Part shown: positions 48,001 to 53,300 of the stretch, in pieces
Layout of the letters: each line of letters starts with the position of its first letter
How positions within the stretch are numbered: position 1 is the stretch's first letter
Assembly: GCF_028737325.1 (NCBI RefSeq)
Contig: NZ_JAQZCH010000002.1
Coordinates: 372,001-436,000, forward strand
Length of the DNA: 64,000 nucleotides
DNA from: Microbacterium thalli
Lineage (GTDB): Bacteria; Actinomycetota; Actinomycetes; Actinomycetales; Microbacteriaceae
Direction: 5' to 3'
Notes under the pieces: generated by a model
Database searches by the model: none
What the model was told of the DNA's origin: nothing
The model's input: only the letters and a program-made list of their open reading frames with translations
Program-made: the position numbers and the translations under genes

Positions 48001-51000
48001 TCAGCCTACGGCGCTCGCGCGCTCGCGCACGCGCTGACCCACGACGGCCGACACGCCGTCCTGCCGCATCGAGACGCCGTAGAGCGCGTCGGCGATCTCC
48101 ATCGTGCGCTTCTGGTGCGTGATGACGATGAGCTGGCTCGATGTACGCAGTTGCTCGAACACGCCCAGCAGGCGCCCGAGGTTCGCGTCGTCGAGGGCCG
48201 CCTCCACCTCGTCGAGGATGTAGAAGGGGCTCGGGCGTGCCTTGAATATGGCGGTCAGCAACGCGACGGCCGCGAGCGAGCGCTCGCCACCCGAAAGCAG
48301 CGACAACCGCTCGATCTTCTTCCCGACCGGGCGCACCGAGACCTCGATGCCCGTCGTCAGCGGGTGGTCGGGATCCGTCAGCGAGATGCTGCCGGTGCCG
48401 CCCGGGAACAGGATCGGGAAGACCTCGCCGAAGGCGATCTTCGTGTCTTCGAACGCGGCGAGGAAGATCGTCTGCATCCGCTCGTCGAGCTCCTCGATGA
48501 TCGTGAGGAGGTCGGCGCGGGTCTGCGTCAGATCGGCGAGCTGCTCGGTGAGGAAGGCGTGGCGTTGCTCGAGCGCGGAGAACTCCTCAAGCGCGAGCGG
48601 GTTCACGCGGCCGAGCTGAGCGAGCTTGCGCTCCGCCTCGGCCAAGCGTCGACGCTGCTGGCCGCGCTCGAACGGCACGGGGTCGCCGTCAACGTCGGGA
48701 ACAGGCTGGTCGGGGCCGTATTCGGCGACGAGGATGCTCTCGTCGAGGCCGAGCTCGGACGAGACGCGCTCGAGCAGGCTGGTCACGTGCAGCTTCTTCT
48801 CGTGCATCTGCATCTCGAGGCCGTGCACGGACTCGGTCAGGGCCGCCAGGCGACCGCGAGCAGCCTGGTCCCGCTGCCGGAGCTCGGACAGCTCGGCCGA
48901 GATCTCGCTGCGCGACTGCTCGGCGCGTCCCAGTTCGACGCGCGCCTGCGCGACCGAACGGTCGATCGACTCGATCAGCGGCGGCAGCTGACTCGCGACC
49001 GCATCCGCGATCTCGCGCTGCCGGCGGCGGATGACGGCGCGTCGTGCGGCCTCGGCCGCGGCGGCCTTCTCGCGCTCGCGCTGCCGCTCGAGCTGCGCGA
49101 CGCGCGCTTCGCCGGCACGCACGCGCTCACGCAGCGTCTCGACGTCCAGCCGCGCCCGCATCTCGCGCTCACGCGAACGTTCGAGCGCGTCCAGCAGACC
49201 GTCCCGGGCTGAGGCATCGAGGATCGGCCGCGGTGCCGCCGTCGCTGCCGCAAGCGCGTCGTCGGCCTCGCGAGCCGCGGCCTCAGCGTCGACGACGGCC
49301 GCCGTCGCCGGTGCGAGACCGGCCTCGAGCCGGTCGCACTCGGCGACCGCGGCCTCGAACCGGACCGTCGCGCGATTGAACTTCTCGGCGTCGGCCGCGA
49401 GAGCGGCGTCGTGCGCGCGCAGGGTCTCGAGCGTCGTCCGGGTGCGGGTGCGGGCCTCGTTCCACGCGGCCTGGGCGTCGGTCAGCGATTCGCGCAGGGC
49501 GTCGACGACGACGGTCAGCTCCGAAAGCCGGTCGGCAGCGGCATCCCGCTCCGCCGCGAGCTCGAGACGCGAGCGTCCGGCGCCGGAGCCCGCACGCAGG
49601 GTGCGCCACGAGACGAGTTCGCCCTGCGTCGTGACGATGACGGCGCGGTCGCGGTCGGCGGCGTCGAGCTGCTCGCGCAGGGTGGTGGCCGCGGCGAGGT
49701 CGTCGACGATGAGGACGGCCGACAGCTGCCCGAGCACGCCGGCGGGTCCGGCCGTGACGTCGACGGCGCGGACCGCGCCCGACGACACGGCGATGGGCTC
49801 TCCCCCCGCCGCGTCGGCGAGCACGATGTCGACGACTCCCAGGTCGTCGGCGCGCGCGACGTCCGCGGCGGACACGGCGGCAGCGACGTCGTCCACGAGG
49901 ACGCCCTCGGCCAGCGCACCCAGGGCGGCCGCCACGGCGGCCTCGTACCCCGGCTCGACCTTGACCGCGTCCGAGACCAGCGATCGCACGCCCGCGGCCC
50001 CGCGGTGGAGCAGGTCGGCGGCAGCGTTGCGGATCTCGAGGGCGCGTCCGAGCGCCGCGGTCTGAGCCGTCAGCGACTCCGCCTCGCGCTCGGCGGCGTG
50101 CAGCCGTTCGCGGATGCCCGAGACTTCCGCTTCGGCGTCGGCGGCGTCGCGCTGTGCGCGCTCGTACGCCGCCGTGTGCTCGGCCGAGCTCGCCTCCGGG
50201 CTCGCCTCGGTCTGCACCGCCGCGAGAGCCTCCTCGGCCTCAGCGCGCCGGGCCCGCGCGGCATCCAGCCCGCGCTGCTGCCGCTCCACGGCGGCGCGCA
50301 GCGCTTCGAGCCGGGATGCCGCGGCGTCGGCCCGGCCGCGCAGCTTCGTCAGCCGCATATCGTGCTCCGACACCAGGGCGCTCTGCGCGGCGATATCGGA
50401 GTCGAGCGCGTCGAGCTCTGCCCGCGACCGGATGACATCGCGGGAGGCCGCGGCGGCGACATCCTGGGCATCCCCGACGCCGGCCGCGATCTCGTCGACC
50501 TCGTTCCGCGCCTCGTCGATCGTCGCCTGACCGACCGTGGCGACGTCGACGGCGAGCTGTCCGTCGTCCTCGAGCAGCGCGCGGCGCTGCGCCGTGAGAG
50601 TGTGCAGGCCACGCACGCGCTCCTGCACCTGTTCGAGCGCGAATGCGGTCGCTCGAGCTCGATCGACGGCCTCCGAGCGCTGCTCGGCCTCGAGCGCATC
50701 GATGCGCTGCTTGACGCTGTCGAGCTGATCCTGCAAGACGACACGTTCGGCGTGCCGTTCGTGCTCGGCCCGCGCGTGATCGGCCAACTGCGTCCGCAGC
50801 GACACGAGGTCGTCGGCGAAGAGACGCGCTTTCGCGTCGCGGACCACCGCCGCGATCGTGGCGGCCTCGCGCGCGACCTCCGCCTGCTTGCCGAGGGGCT
50901 TCAGCTGCCGCCGCAGCTCGCCTGCGAGATCGCTCAGCCGCGTGAGGTTCGCCTCCATCGCCTCGAGCTTGCGGACGGTCTTCTCTTTGCGGCGCCGATG

Positions 51001-51507
51001 CTTGAGGATGCCGGCGGCCTCCTCGATGAAGCCGCGGCGGTCTTCGGCGCTGGCCTGCAGCACCGTGTCGAGGCGGCCCTGTCCGACGATGACGTGCATC
51101 TCCCGGCCGAGACCCGAGTCGCTCAGCAGCTCCTGGACGTCGAGCAGACGGCACGTCTCGCCGTTGATGGCGTACTCGCTCGCGCCGTTGCGGAACAGGG
51201 TGCGGCTGATCGTGACCTCGGAGTACTCGATGGGCAGCACGCCGTCGTGGTTGTCGATCGTCAGCTGCACCTCGGCACGCCCCAGCGGTCCGCGGGTCGC
51301 GGTGCCGGCGAAGATGACGTCCTCCATCTTGCCGCCGCGCAACGTCTTCGCGCCCTGCTCACCCATGACCCAGGCGAGCGCGTCCACCACATTCGACTTG
51401 CCCGAGCCGTTGGGGCCGACGATGCACGTGACCCCGGGCTCAAGGACGAAGGTTGTCGGCTGGGCGAACGACTTGAAGCCCTTGAGCGTGACGCTCTTCA
51501 GGTGCAT
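48001..51507 (-). CDS. smc: chromosome segregation protein SMC
   Basis: ATP-driven chromosome organiser acting as a long dimeric ring with ScpA/B. The 1168-residue protein shows Walker A GPNGSGKSNVVDAL at 31-44, long coiled coils rich in Ala, Arg and Glu on both sides of a central hinge (about 490-650), the signature LSGGERSLAAVALLTAIF and Walker B FYILDEVEAALDD near the C-terminus. ATG 51507 has GGGAGGG in front and matches the family start HLKSVTLKGFKSF; 11 extra codons upstream are ignored. TAGCGT (51546-51541, minus strand) may be its -10. ftsY follows. Confidence 0.97.
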   Translation of the reverse strand: MHLKSVTLKGFKSFAQPTTFVLEPGVTCIVGPNGSGKSNVVDALAWVMGEQGAKTLRGGKMEDVIFAGTATRGPLGRAEVQLTIDNHDGVLPIEYSEVTISRTLFRNGASEYAINGETCRLLDVQELLSDSGLGREMHVIVGQGRLDTVLQASAEDRRGFIEEAAGILKHRRRKEKTVRKLEAMEANLTRLSDLAGELRRQLKPLGKQAEVAREAATIAAVVRDAKARLFADDLVSLRTQLADHARAEHERHAERVVLQDQLDSVKQRIDALEAEQRSEAVDRARATAFALEQVQERVRGLHTLTAQRRALLEDDGQLAVDVATVGQATIDEARNEVDEIAAGVGDAQDVAAAASRDVIRSRAELDALDSDIAAQSALVSEHDMRLTKLRGRADAAASRLEALRAAVERQQRGLDAARARRAEAEEALAAVQTEASPEASSAEHTAAYERAQRDAADAEAEVSGIRERLHAAEREAESLTAQTAALGRALEIRNAAADLLHRGAAGVRSLVSDAVKVEPGYEAAVAAALGALAEGVLVDDVAAAVSAADVARADDLGVVDIVLADAAGGEPIAVSSGAVRAVDVTAGPAGVLGQLSAVLIVDDLAAATTLREQLDAADRDRAVIVTTQGELVSWRTLRAGSGAGRSRLELAAERDAAADRLSELTVVVDALRESLTDAQAAWNEARTRTRTTLETLRAHDAALAADAEKFNRATVRFEAAVAECDRLEAGLAPATAAVVDAEAAAREADDALAAATAAPRPILDASARDGLLDALERSREREMRARLDVETLRERVRAGEARVAQLERQREREKAAAAEAARRAVIRRRQREIADAVASQLPPLIESIDRSVAQARVELGRAEQSRSEISAELSELRQRDQAARGRLAALTESVHGLEMQMHEKKLHVTSLLERVSSELGLDESILVAEYGPDQPVPDVDGDPVPFERGQQRRRLAEAERKLAQLGRVNPLALEEFSALEQRHAFLTEQLADLTQTRADLLTIIEELDERMQTIFLAAFEDTKIAFGEVFPILFPGGTGSISLTDPDHPLTTGIEVSVRPVGKKIERLSLLSGGERSLAAVALLTAIFKARPSPFYILDEVEAALDDANLGRLLGVFEQLRTSSQLIVITHQKRTMEIADALYGVSMRQDGVSAVVGQRVRERASAVG

Positions 51508-51540
51508 GTCGGGCCCTCCCGGGGGTCGGTGAACGTCCAC

Positions 51541-51597
51541 ACGCTACCGGAGGATGCCGGCCCGGACTTGACGCCGCACCGCGCGGACCGCTAGCGT
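51541..51597. promoter_or_regulatory. divergent promoters of smc and the small-ORF operon
   Basis: On the plus strand TTGACG (51568-51573), an 18-base spacer and TAGCGT (51592-51597) form one of the best promoters in the window, starting near 51604. On the minus strand TAGCGT (51546-51541) points toward smc, with no clear -35. The two -10 hexamers are identical. Confidence 0.55.
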
Positions 51598-51632
51598 CAC
51601 AACCCGCATCCCCGATGGAAGGAGGTTCCCCG

Positions 51633-51743
51633 ATGTTGATCACTGTCACCGCGTTCGCTGTCACCGCTCGTTCCGAGCACCGCGACCGTTTCGACCGCGT
51701 TCTCCGAGGAGCCACCGTCATCGGCGCCCCGCTGAACGCGTAG
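51633..51743 (+). CDS. 36-residue small ORF, probable leader peptide
   Basis: ATG 51633 follows AAGGAGG by six bases, the strongest ribosome site seen here. The frame encodes MLITVTAFAVTARSEHRDRF and 16 more residues to TAG 51741. The N-terminus is hydrophobic, the middle basic. It starts about 28 bases into the transcript from the TTGACG/TAGCGT promoter. A hairpin (51777-51799) and the 82-residue ORF follow. I do not recognise the peptide. Its position suggests a translated leader that controls the genes behind it, but a stand-alone small protein cannot be excluded. Confidence 0.5.
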   Translation: MLITVTAFAVTARSEHRDRFDRVLRGATVIGAPLNA

Positions 51744-51776
51744 GTCTGCGGCTTCCCGCCCCCGTTCCGCCCCTCA

Positions 51777-51799
51777 CCCGGCCCGTCTCCACGGCCGGG
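51777..51799 (+). other. hairpin behind the small ORF
   Basis: Bases 51777-51786 and 51791-51799 form a stem with one bulged base and a four-base loop. It starts 34 bases after the stop of the 36-residue ORF and about 70 bases before the next ATG. No T-tract follows. It could be an attenuator or an RNA-processing site; the role is inferred. Confidence 0.35.
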
Positions 51800-51868
51800 A
51801 CGCAGCTTCTGCTGCACTCCGCGACCACAGCGTCGCTTGCGATTCCGCCCTCATCGAACGAGGACCCC

Positions 51869-52117
51869 ATGAACACCGTCGTCGAACGACATCCCTCCGT
51901 CGCGCCCGTCGCCTCCGCCCATGCGGTGCCGCCGGCGCGCCGCCTCACCCTGACCGAGCGCCTCGCCCTCCGACTGGCCCTGCGCCTGATCGTCTGGAGC
52001 GCACGGCACCGTGCCACGGCTGCCCCGGCCGTGGCACGTGCCCGCGAACAGCTCGCCGCTCGCGAAGCACGGGAGCGTGCCTGGCAACGCTCCTTCTTGC
52101 TCACCACCCACCGTTGA
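51869..52117 (+). CDS. 82-residue uncharacterised basic protein
   Basis: Not recognised beyond a resemblance to small Microbacteriaceae proteins with the same TERLALRL motif. The N-terminal 28 residues are polar and Pro/Ala rich. An amphipathic, hydrophobic helix follows (LTERLALRLALRLIVWSAR, about 29-47), then an Ala/Arg-rich helix (REQLAAREARERAWQRSF). Such a build suggests a membrane-surface or nucleic-acid-binding peptide, but this is inference. GAGGA lies six bases before ATG 51869. A 30-bp palindromic terminator begins two bases after its stop, so the transcript from 51604 probably ends here. Confidence 0.55.
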   Translation: MNTVVERHPSVAPVASAHAVPPARRLTLTERLALRLALRLIVWSARHRATAAPAVARAREQLAAREARERAWQRSFLLTTHR

Positions 52118-52119
52118 TC

Positions 52120-52149
52120 GTGCGGGGGCCCGCCGGCGGGCCCCCGCAC
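52120..52149 (+). terminator. terminator after the 82-residue ORF
   Basis: A perfect 30-bp palindrome with no unpaired centre (52120-52134 against 52135-52149), made almost only of G and C. It lies between the 82-residue ORF and the GNAT gene, whose ATG is 18 bases further, so the GNAT gene either needs read-through or has a promoter within the ORF. Confidence 0.65.
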
Positions 52150-52166: not shown

Positions 52167-53300
52167 ATGACCGCCCCGCCCCCGCAGCTCGAGCTGCATC
52201 CCCTGCACATCCCGGCACATGTCGACGATGCGGACGCCGCTGACTTCCGCGAGATGACGCATGTCCGCAACATCGTCTACCGCGAGATCACCGGATCGGA
52301 CGACAACGACCTGCGGCCTGACGAGCTGCTCCCCCATTACCGCCCTGCGCCGGACGAGATCCGCCTGATCTGGGTCGCGCGGTGGAACGGCCGCATCGTC
52401 GGCCGCGCCGCGCTGGACCTGCCCCTCGAGCAGGGTTCGGACACGGGAGTGTGGCTGATCGAGCTGCTCGCCGAAGTCCACGGGCACGGCATCGGCACGG
52501 CGGCGTACGCGGTGATCGAAGGGGCCGCTCGCGAGCACGGCCGTCGCACACTGCAAAGCTATGCGGAACACCCGAACGCGCCAGGCCCTCGGATCGCCGC
52601 GCCCACCGGTTTCGGCGACATCCCGCTGGATCGGCGCGCGCGCTTCTTCCTGCGTCAGGGGTACGAGCTGCAGCAGATCGAGCGCAAGAGCGCGCTCGAT
52701 CTGCGGGCTGCATCGGCGACGGTGGACCGCCTGCTCGACGAGGCCCGCGCGGCATCCGGCGGGTATCGCGTCGTGCAGTGGACGGCGCCGACCCCCGCCG
52801 AACACGTCGACGGCTACGCGTGGCTCAAATCGCGCATGTCGACCGACGCCCCCGCGGGAGGCATGGCGATCGACGAGGAGGCCTGGGATGCCGCGCGCGT
52901 GCAGCGTCACGATGCGCGCTACCTTGAGGCCGGCCAGACCCTCTTCGTCACCGCGGCGCAGCACGTCGCCACGGGAGAACTCGTCGCGTTCAACGAACTC
53001 ATGATCGGCTCGGACCGGAGCCGCGCGACGTTCCAGGAGGACACGCTGGTGTCGGCTGCCCACCGCGGGCACCGGCTCGGCCTCCTCGTGAAGTGCGCGG
53101 CACTCGTCGCCTGGCGCGACATCGCGCCCGCCTCACCCCGCGTGATCACCTACAACGCCGAGGAGAATCGGCCGATGCTCGACATCAACGAACGCATCGG
53201 ATTCGCTCCCCTCTCCTACGAGGGAGCATGGCAGAAGGTGCTCGACGCCGTCACCGACGGCGCTGGCACCGCGGGCAGTAGTGCGACGAGCGGTTCGTGA
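52167..53300 (+). CDS. GNAT family protein with two acetyltransferase-like domains
   Basis: A 377-residue protein with two GNAT-like halves. The N-terminal half (about 20-165) has RLIWVARWNGRIVGRAALDL and the acetyl-CoA-like loop LLAEVHGHGIGTAAYAVIEGAARE. The C-terminal half (about 195-370) has VATGELVAFNELMIG, DTLVSAAHRGHRLGLLVKCAALV with the Q/RxxGxG/L-type loop, and NAEENRPMLDINERIGF. The second loop reads HRGHRLGL and looks functional. Tandem GNAT enzymes of actinobacteria include mycothiol synthase, but the match here is only to the fold. ATG 52167 has GAAAGAGAG in front. The end overlaps mutM by 50 bases on the other strand. Confidence 0.78.
   Translation: MTAPPPQLELHPLHIPAHVDDADAADFREMTHVRNIVYREITGSDDNDLRPDELLPHYRPAPDEIRLIWVARWNGRIVGRAALDLPLEQGSDTGVWLIELLAEVHGHGIGTAAYAVIEGAAREHGRRTLQSYAEHPNAPGPRIAAPTGFGDIPLDRRARFFLRQGYELQQIERKSALDLRAASATVDRLLDEARAASGGYRVVQWTAPTPAEHVDGYAWLKSRMSTDAPAGGMAIDEEAWDAARVQRHDARYLEAGQTLFVTAAQHVATGELVAFNELMIGSDRSRATFQEDTLVSAAHRGHRLGLLVKCAALVAWRDIAPASPRVITYNAEENRPMLDINERIGFAPLSYEGAWQKVLDAVTDGAGTAGSSATSGS

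Follow-up and report, generated by a model that had tools for sequence, protein, structure and literature searches.

A leader ORF whose Shine-Dalgarno sequence can pair with its own codons precedes a small basic protein in Microbacterium and may gauge translation initiation

Attenuators built on upstream open reading frames (uORFs) are already known; leader ORFs in bacteria are usually read as encoding peptides that stall on one signal, and in the whiB7 leader the downstream gene is a WhiB regulator. A different logic is described for duf1127_1 of S. meliloti: a uORF of 29 codons begins 30 nt past the transcription start site, the leader has C-rich elements, attenuation needs translation of the uORF, and synonymous changes show that the RNA, not the peptide, matters (PMC12218461). 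The same report describes a structure between the uORF ribosome-binding site (RBS) and uORF codons that masks the first attenuation element, and proposes a monitor of ribosome availability (PMC12218461). Induction by tetracycline or chloramphenicol would be expected of a leader of this type. A limited literature search returned nothing on uORFs in Microbacterium or on Rho-dependent control in Microbacteriaceae, and the available part of PMC11109978 names neither Microbacterium nor Microbacteriaceae.

Here, we describe a compact unit that lies between smc and a GNAT gene in the window (the whole 64,000-nucleotide stretch of Microbacterium thalli DNA that was analyzed). Its features, in window coordinates, are as follows:

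48001 to 51540, minus strand: smc; the unit lies upstream of it
51568 to 51597, plus strand: promoter TTGACG-18-TAGCGT, divergent from smc, seen in the sequence (TTGACG at 51568 to 51573, TAGCGT at 51592 to 51597)
51619 to 51626, plus strand: Shine-Dalgarno sequence (SD) AAGGAGGT of the short ORF, seen in the sequence
51624 to 51629, plus strand: element 1, GGTTCC, the 3' half of the SD, able to pair with element 2 (class-wide covariation)
51633 to 51743, plus strand: short upstream ORF of 36 codons, from ATG at 51633 to a TAG ending at 51743, seen in the sequence; frame-locked with the RNA element
51708 to 51713, plus strand: element 2, GGAGCC, within the short ORF and complementary to element 1 (predicted minimum-energy fold)
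51744 to 51868, plus strand: untranslated gap, C-rich and G-poor, a candidate Rho-loading region (C-G skew)
about 51777 to 51799, plus strand: CCCGGCC/GGCCGGG hairpin in the gap, found by eye
51869 to 52117, plus strand: p82, a basic protein of 82 residues (pN/pS, family HMM, AlphaFold2)
52120 to 52149, plus strand: perfect 30-bp palindrome (15+15) 3' of p82, without a U-tract, seen in the sequence
about 52168 to 53300: GNAT gene (Pfam Acetyltransf_1)

The initial annotation had placed a TTGACG-18-TAGCGT promoter, a 36-codon ORF with an ideal SD, a hairpin and an 82-codon ORF for a basic protein between smc and a GNAT gene; the location agrees with the sequence, the GNAT assignment with Pfam, and all four elements are present, the hairpin by eye. 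To follow the unit across the genus, we used 126 smc-upstream regions, namely, the window, 100 genus genomes and 25 other loci. The 100 genomes were drawn from the best-ranking smc matches among those listed (363 of 366 genomes had an smc match), and for this reason the sample is skewed toward smc-similar genomes; some of the 25 loci come from the same genomes as among the 100, and 2 are metagenome-assembled genomes titled just Microbacteriaceae or Actinomycetota. Queried with its N-terminal 200 residues, smc itself gave a 99% match to M. arborescens. In an automatic search, 109 of the 126 loci had a strong-SD short ORF together with p82; 11 had just the short ORF, 5 just p82 and 1 neither. 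On reinspection, the short ORF precedes p82 in 4 of the 5 p82-only loci (total, 113/126), and in 3 of these 4 the entire unit sits farther away from smc. Across Microbacterium, the unit comprises a short ORF of 20 to 41 codons and a p82 of 79 to 100 residues with a C-rich gap between them, and both the strong-SD ORF and p82 recur at the same location genus-wide. Of 55 loci taken as other genera, none (0/55) has p82 in the roughly 2 kb searched upstream of smc, and two short ORFs upstream of smc in those loci look like chance. The compact unit itself is more than chance.

Dropping BLASTN neighbors of >88% reduced 120 leaders to 74 non-redundant ones. A suitably spaced promoter matching TTG[ACG][ACG]N-15/20-TANNNT precedes the short ORF in all 74 Microbacterium leaders (12 of 1,480 shuffles have one), and every one is TTGACN with a spacer of 17 or 18, so that the window's promoter has a TTGACN-17/18-TANNNT counterpart in 74/74; a generic scan of the window stretch found no sigma-70-type promoter. 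As for the SD, AAGGAGGT-N3-8-ATG occurs at 4 sites in the 3.09-Mb genome (the backwards pattern at 2), and leader SDs agree with up to 11 bases of the complement of the 16S 3' end. Of the other strong-SD sites in this genome, two begin long ORFs (169 and 220 codons) and the third begins a 14-codon ORF overlapping a longer one. The 220-codon ORF near 1040605 (L262, C7), which carries one of the four AAGGAGGT-ATG sites, presumably encodes a ribosome hibernation factor.

Purifying selection on the 82-residue ORF was one of two tests set in advance: pN/pS was 0.30 and substitutions by codon position were 239:183:604 (36 closest equal-length pairs), and because of this low ratio and the third-position excess, p82 is a real protein under purifying selection. 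AlphaFold2 predicts a disordered N-terminus and one helix at residues 28 to 80 (pLDDT 76, pTM 0.33), with a family core of about RxxLxDRxALRxGLxLLxWSxR. A family HMM built from 61 sequences matched 85 of 249 sampled Microbacteriaceae genomes, in 40 of 85 genera. The source genome holds one such place, a second match (E 0.76) having an internal stop. At the order level, 22 of 248 genomes had matches, with weak relatives in other families, and at the class level 12 of 246, all from the same order as the window. These results support a small, basic, helical, lineage-specific product. In L275 and L279, one genus in another family, weak p82 relatives have a strong-SD ORF (MLKLIAF...GGQGLVG) upstream. 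Searches of Pfam and NCBIfam with the 61 members gave just isolated weak matches, each in one member (best, DUF1707 at E 0.0042), and a fold search gave one meaningless PDB match (E 3.6). The core (LxDRxxxxIGL) may resemble DUF1127. Kinship with that family was rejected: neither DUF1127 nor WhiB families were found among the 61 members (Pfam, E 0.1), the PF06568 matches in the source genome lie elsewhere and below the cut-off, and pSymA yielded no DUF1127 match usable for profile building. p82 appears to be a new family of small basic proteins, and no Pfam, NCBIfam or Rfam family fits the unit; our guess is that the protein, basic and built around one helix, acts on RNA, ribosomes or the membrane.

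In the short ORF, pN/pS was 0.72, compared with 0.30 for p82, and substitutions by codon position were 82:125:117 (38 closest equal-length pairs), with no third-position excess; pooled pS was 0.10 versus 0.22 for p82, the pairs differing between the two sets. Indel lengths modulo 3 in the short ORF and gap were too noisy to be informative. By the substitution pattern, the amino acids are hardly constrained; the RNA is. The unit had been read as a leader-peptide-controlled operon; control by a leader ORF is supported, a role for the peptide is not. One alternative is a two-gene operon in which the product of the short ORF is itself a functional small protein, expressed along with p82: the ORF retains its start codon, a strong SD and an open frame, and the pieces GTVSFGA (many Microbacterium) and TAGFVGV (other genera) recur. 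The substitution pattern argues against this, the recurring pieces coincide with the pairing strands described below, and a Phe-to-Ser change is compensated in the partner strand; we regard a functional small protein as very unlikely. An arrest or attenuation peptide of the classical kind (erm, tnaC or trp/ilv type), whose nascent chain or codon run makes the ribosome stall on one signal, would also begin with a leader ORF followed by RNA capable of more than one pairing. It would be hard to square with the near absence of amino-acid constraint, with peptides that by inspection share no codon run in Microbacterium or the other genera, and with a generic scan of the window stretch that found no intrinsic terminator, and we consider it unlikely.

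What is constrained is a helix in which the SD pairs with the ORF that it serves. In Microbacterium leaders (class I), the segment running from the final GG of the SD in the direction of the start codon has its complement within the ORF, with strands as different as GGTCCCCG/CGGGGACC, GGTTACCG/CGGTAACC, GGTCGCC/GGCGACC, GGTTTCCG/CGGAAACC and GGTCACAGC/GCTGTGACC. Over 109 distinct leaders, the mean SD-ORF pairing score was 19.6, compared with 14.9 ± 0.34 when partners were exchanged (maximum among 200, 15.8) and 13.4 ± 0.24 with shuffled ORFs. At least 6 contiguous pairs occur in 96 of the 109 leaders, as 38 different helices, and are missing in 13. An unguided scan of 64 leaders (15 permutations) ranked the SD-ORF pairing first (Z 7.5), and RNAalifold recovered the stem separately in three leader alignments (36, 12 and 11 leaders), groups that were picked by eye and in which all or nearly all of the SD side is missing in 1 row (group of 12) or 2 rows (group of 11). 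In the 36-leader group, the helix has 13 pairs with 96.6% of cells paired (slid controls, 31 to 61%, all below the real helix), double changes in 7 pairs, and covariation of 0.170 versus 0.090; on each of the five measures, 0 of 500 shuffles did as well and every slid version fell short. Conservation of the short ORF's frame, the second test set in advance, is indicated by the helix itself: in 93 of 96 leaders the ORF strand occupies frame 0, even though its spacing to the ATG has 13 different values, and selection would thus have kept both the pairing and the reading frame. Because the leaders are related, these helix and frame counts are not independent events.

The window's own copy of the helix is a weak example: 6 bp with one G-U (GGUUCC/GGAGCC), albeit part of the predicted minimum-energy fold. 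The folding energy of the window leader (z 0.08) was no better than that of shuffles; five other leaders gave z values of -1.1 to -2.4. Predicted SD pairing was 0.79 in class I, compared with 0.81 for codon-shuffled ORFs (higher in 33/74), and 0.82 versus 0.75 in other genera (higher in 29/46). Since these values lie near the codon-shuffled controls, thermodynamics lends little support, and covariation was relied upon because single-sequence folding was no better than controls.

A conserved helix covering the SD, with a C-rich gap after the ORF, would also suit an RNA thermometer or a ligand-binding riboswitch by which the short-ORF SD is hidden and p82 controlled through translation-coupled Rho termination, as in the M. 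tuberculosis pe20 M-box (PMC12810186). Here, the loop closed by the helix differs among leaders in both length and sequence and shows no obvious conserved aptamer-like core, and the 7 class I loci searched had no Rfam match (E up to 1), so that this too seems an improbable explanation. More broadly, when 7 class I loci and 9 others were compared with Rfam 15 at E up to 1, no match within a leader reached a gathering score; in the 9 others, the matches were two tRNAs lying outside the leader and a microRNA far below threshold. Another possibility is that there is no switch at all: a strong SD at the 5' end would protect the mRNA or prime re-initiation, and the helix would fix the level of ORF translation. 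The short 5' leader and the near-perfect SD of most leaders would suit this, but it leaves unexplained a frame-locked helix, the post-stop helix of other genera and a C-rich gap of 124 to 248 nt; we give the absence of a switch very little credence.

The other genera supply a second form of the leader. From other Microbacteriaceae genera, 58 p82 loci were taken (18 + 40), and a lenient rule (at least 6 SD bases, 10 to 60 codons) placed a strong-SD short ORF upstream of p82 in 46 of them; 41 of the 46 ORFs have 18 to 30 codons, many end like TAGFVGVxTA, and a few with long gaps may be there by chance. AAAGGAG is present in 41 of these leaders, of which 7 were dropped by eye, their post-stop RNA being unlike that of the others (the dropped L209, L211 and L226 have the ORF motif without an obvious partner); the class II counts therefore rest on a chosen set of 34. 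In these 34 leaders, the ORF strand GGCUUCGUCGGCGUC...ACCGCC pairs with post-stop RNA GGUGGUGACGCUCUCGAAGCC, forming 19 pairs with 91% of cells paired (slid controls, 27 to 63%). Double-change cells numbered 13 versus 2.5 expected (0/500 shuffles), and covariation was 0.143 versus 0.101 (0/500 shuffles); double changes fell in 5 of the 19 pairs versus 2.2, a value equaled by 16 of 500 shuffles. The support sits in the first two helices, the third being without a double change. In three related leaders, UUC → UCC (Phe to Ser) is matched by GAA → GGA in the partner. RNAalifold, unaided, predicts part of the helix, an unguided scan of the other genera gave it a Z of 2.5, behind local hairpins, and 31 of 33 leaders have the ORF strand in frame 0. 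The class II SD hexamer can pair fully with an ORF hexamer in 29 of the 34, and neither this SD helix nor the hairpin of the post-stop strand alone has covariation support in class II. Given that unsupported SD helix, and since a search for a class I partner of the ORF strand after the stop codon found none, one shared mechanism with three mutually exclusive elements is unproven.

The other-genus loci also bear on the neighborhood. By tblastn (E 0.01; some regions incomplete), 106 of 126 Microbacterium loci have a GNAT after the unit, yet relatives of smc or GNAT were found in 0 of the 58 other-genus loci (2.5 to 3.2 kb each). The leader thus accompanies p82, not smc or GNAT, and membership of GNAT in the unit is not supported. 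The GNAT start lies only 50 nt past the p82 stop in the window, where transcripts may thus read through into GNAT. Under strict tblastx, 7 of the 58 loci (L199, L201, L208, L209, L217, L218 and L242) share the window stretch near 55 kb, about 4 kb from p82, where we take the gene to be coaD; the p82 neighborhood thus seems partly shared across genera, in a minority of loci. Some other-genus loci have a neighbor in common (e.g., L201 and L205), and tRNA genes lie close to the unit in L216 and L237. Grouping these loci by similar flanks (tblastx) was too loose and was abandoned.

The gap between the short ORF and p82 (124 to 248 nt in 109 loci) holds more C than G in 110 of 110 leaders (class I, 64/64; other genera, 46/46). 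In the window, C-G skew over 51744 to 51854 is 0.325, a value reached by none of 1,727 segments of 110 nt sampled every 37 bases along the 64 kb. The class I gap is clearly more C-skewed (C/G, 1.69) than the short ORF (about 1.37) or p82 (about 1.39). In other genera, the ratios are 1.44, 1.44 and 1.28, respectively; gap and ORF being equal, the gap is not special there. A C-rich, G-poor composition is that of Rho-loading sites, the genome has a Rho family match, and base composition thus hints that Rho may act in the gap. Two further motifs occur in it. A hairpin core GTGCTGCGGCA with a UNCG-type loop lies 58 to 84 nt before p82 in 26 of 64 non-redundant leaders (e.g., L114 and L143), and by pattern an SD-like motif resembling GGAGRACTCYGCC lies 7 to 13 nt past the short-ORF stop in 23 of 64 Microbacterium leaders. 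Beyond p82, stems of at least 9 bp follow in 87 of 113 Microbacterium loci, and at least 4 T in the next 8 nt in 2 of 113. The palindrome first described as a terminator is indeed perfect over its 30 bp; the near absence of T-runs after the stems leaves its role as a terminator unsupported, and the GC hairpin may be a terminator, a processing site or a stabilizer.

We give an even chance to the proposal that p82 is controlled by a translation-coupled attenuator, perhaps dependent on Rho, with the unit acting as a gauge of translation initiation. A strong promoter would drive a short leader in which a near-perfect SD serves a short ORF, apparently translated, whose peptide would be irrelevant. 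RNA of the ORF would pair with the SD in front of it (class I) or with the post-stop RNA (class II), and ribosome loading and folding would therefore compete. Under efficient translation, the ORF strand would be held open and the C-rich post-stop RNA left bare, and transcription would end before p82, probably via Rho, with p82 off; slow or blocked initiation (ribosome shortage, drugs or stress) would allow the fold to form, transcription to continue and p82 to be made. This direction, translation on and p82 off, is borrowed by analogy from S. meliloti duf1127_1; the sign may instead be opposite, with the SD helix keeping the ORF untranslated, more Rho action and p82 off. The link to translation sensing made in the initial annotation is the best reading. 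A narrower form of the attenuator proposal, about which we are somewhat more doubtful than hopeful, makes the SD itself the sensor: an SD of maximal strength would compete for the ribosome with a helix of its own ORF while the peptide drifts, giving a Microbacteriaceae-wide gauge that drives the p82 family, convergent with duf1127_1, in which other genera would have re-used the ORF strand for post-stop pairing. Selection in most Microbacterium loci examined acts on SD strength, frame and base pairing and hardly on the peptide. If the proposal is true, Actinobacteria would have a general sensor of translation status that comes with ready natural compensatory mutants, and failing translation would switch on synthesis of the p82 family, which has matches in 85 of the 249 Microbacteriaceae genomes searched.

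Several described leaders share parts of this arrangement. In Rfam, Pfam, NCBIfam and the limited literature search, we found nothing that corresponds to this lineage, to a covarying SD-covering helix whose peptide is free to vary, to the second class of leader or to the p82 family. Like the M. tuberculosis pe20 M-box, ours is an actinobacterial leader, and control there of a small uORF is coupled to Rho termination; pe20 has a Mg2+ aptamer, whereas no Rfam aptamer was found here (PMC12810186). The whiB7 uORF, likewise in an actinobacterial leader, is linked to starvation and to drugs that target ribosomes (PMC12121999); the present unit differs in its downstream protein, the 61 p82 members having no WhiB Pfam match. 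E. coli toiL-topAI combines a uORF that senses translation stress with a uORF hairpin and Rho-dependent termination; its hairpin hides the RBS of the main gene, in contrast to the uORF's own SD here (PMC12121999). The likeness to duf1127_1 (PMC12218461) extends to a transcription start site 30 nt ahead of a short uORF, a post-stop region with more C than G, a small protein (arginine-rich there, basic here), an effect of the RNA and not of the peptide, a proposed gauge of ribosome availability, and pairing of the uORF RBS with uORF codons, which we see in Microbacterium. That system belongs to an Alphaproteobacterium, and p82 is no DUF1127 (PF06568) by Pfam; we therefore claim likeness of working and not membership. 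The paired codons are 3 to 10 in duf1127_1 (PMC12218461) and late in the ORF here, where the helix is supported by covariation and known from sequence alone, and where a second class of leader pairs its ORF strand with post-stop RNA.
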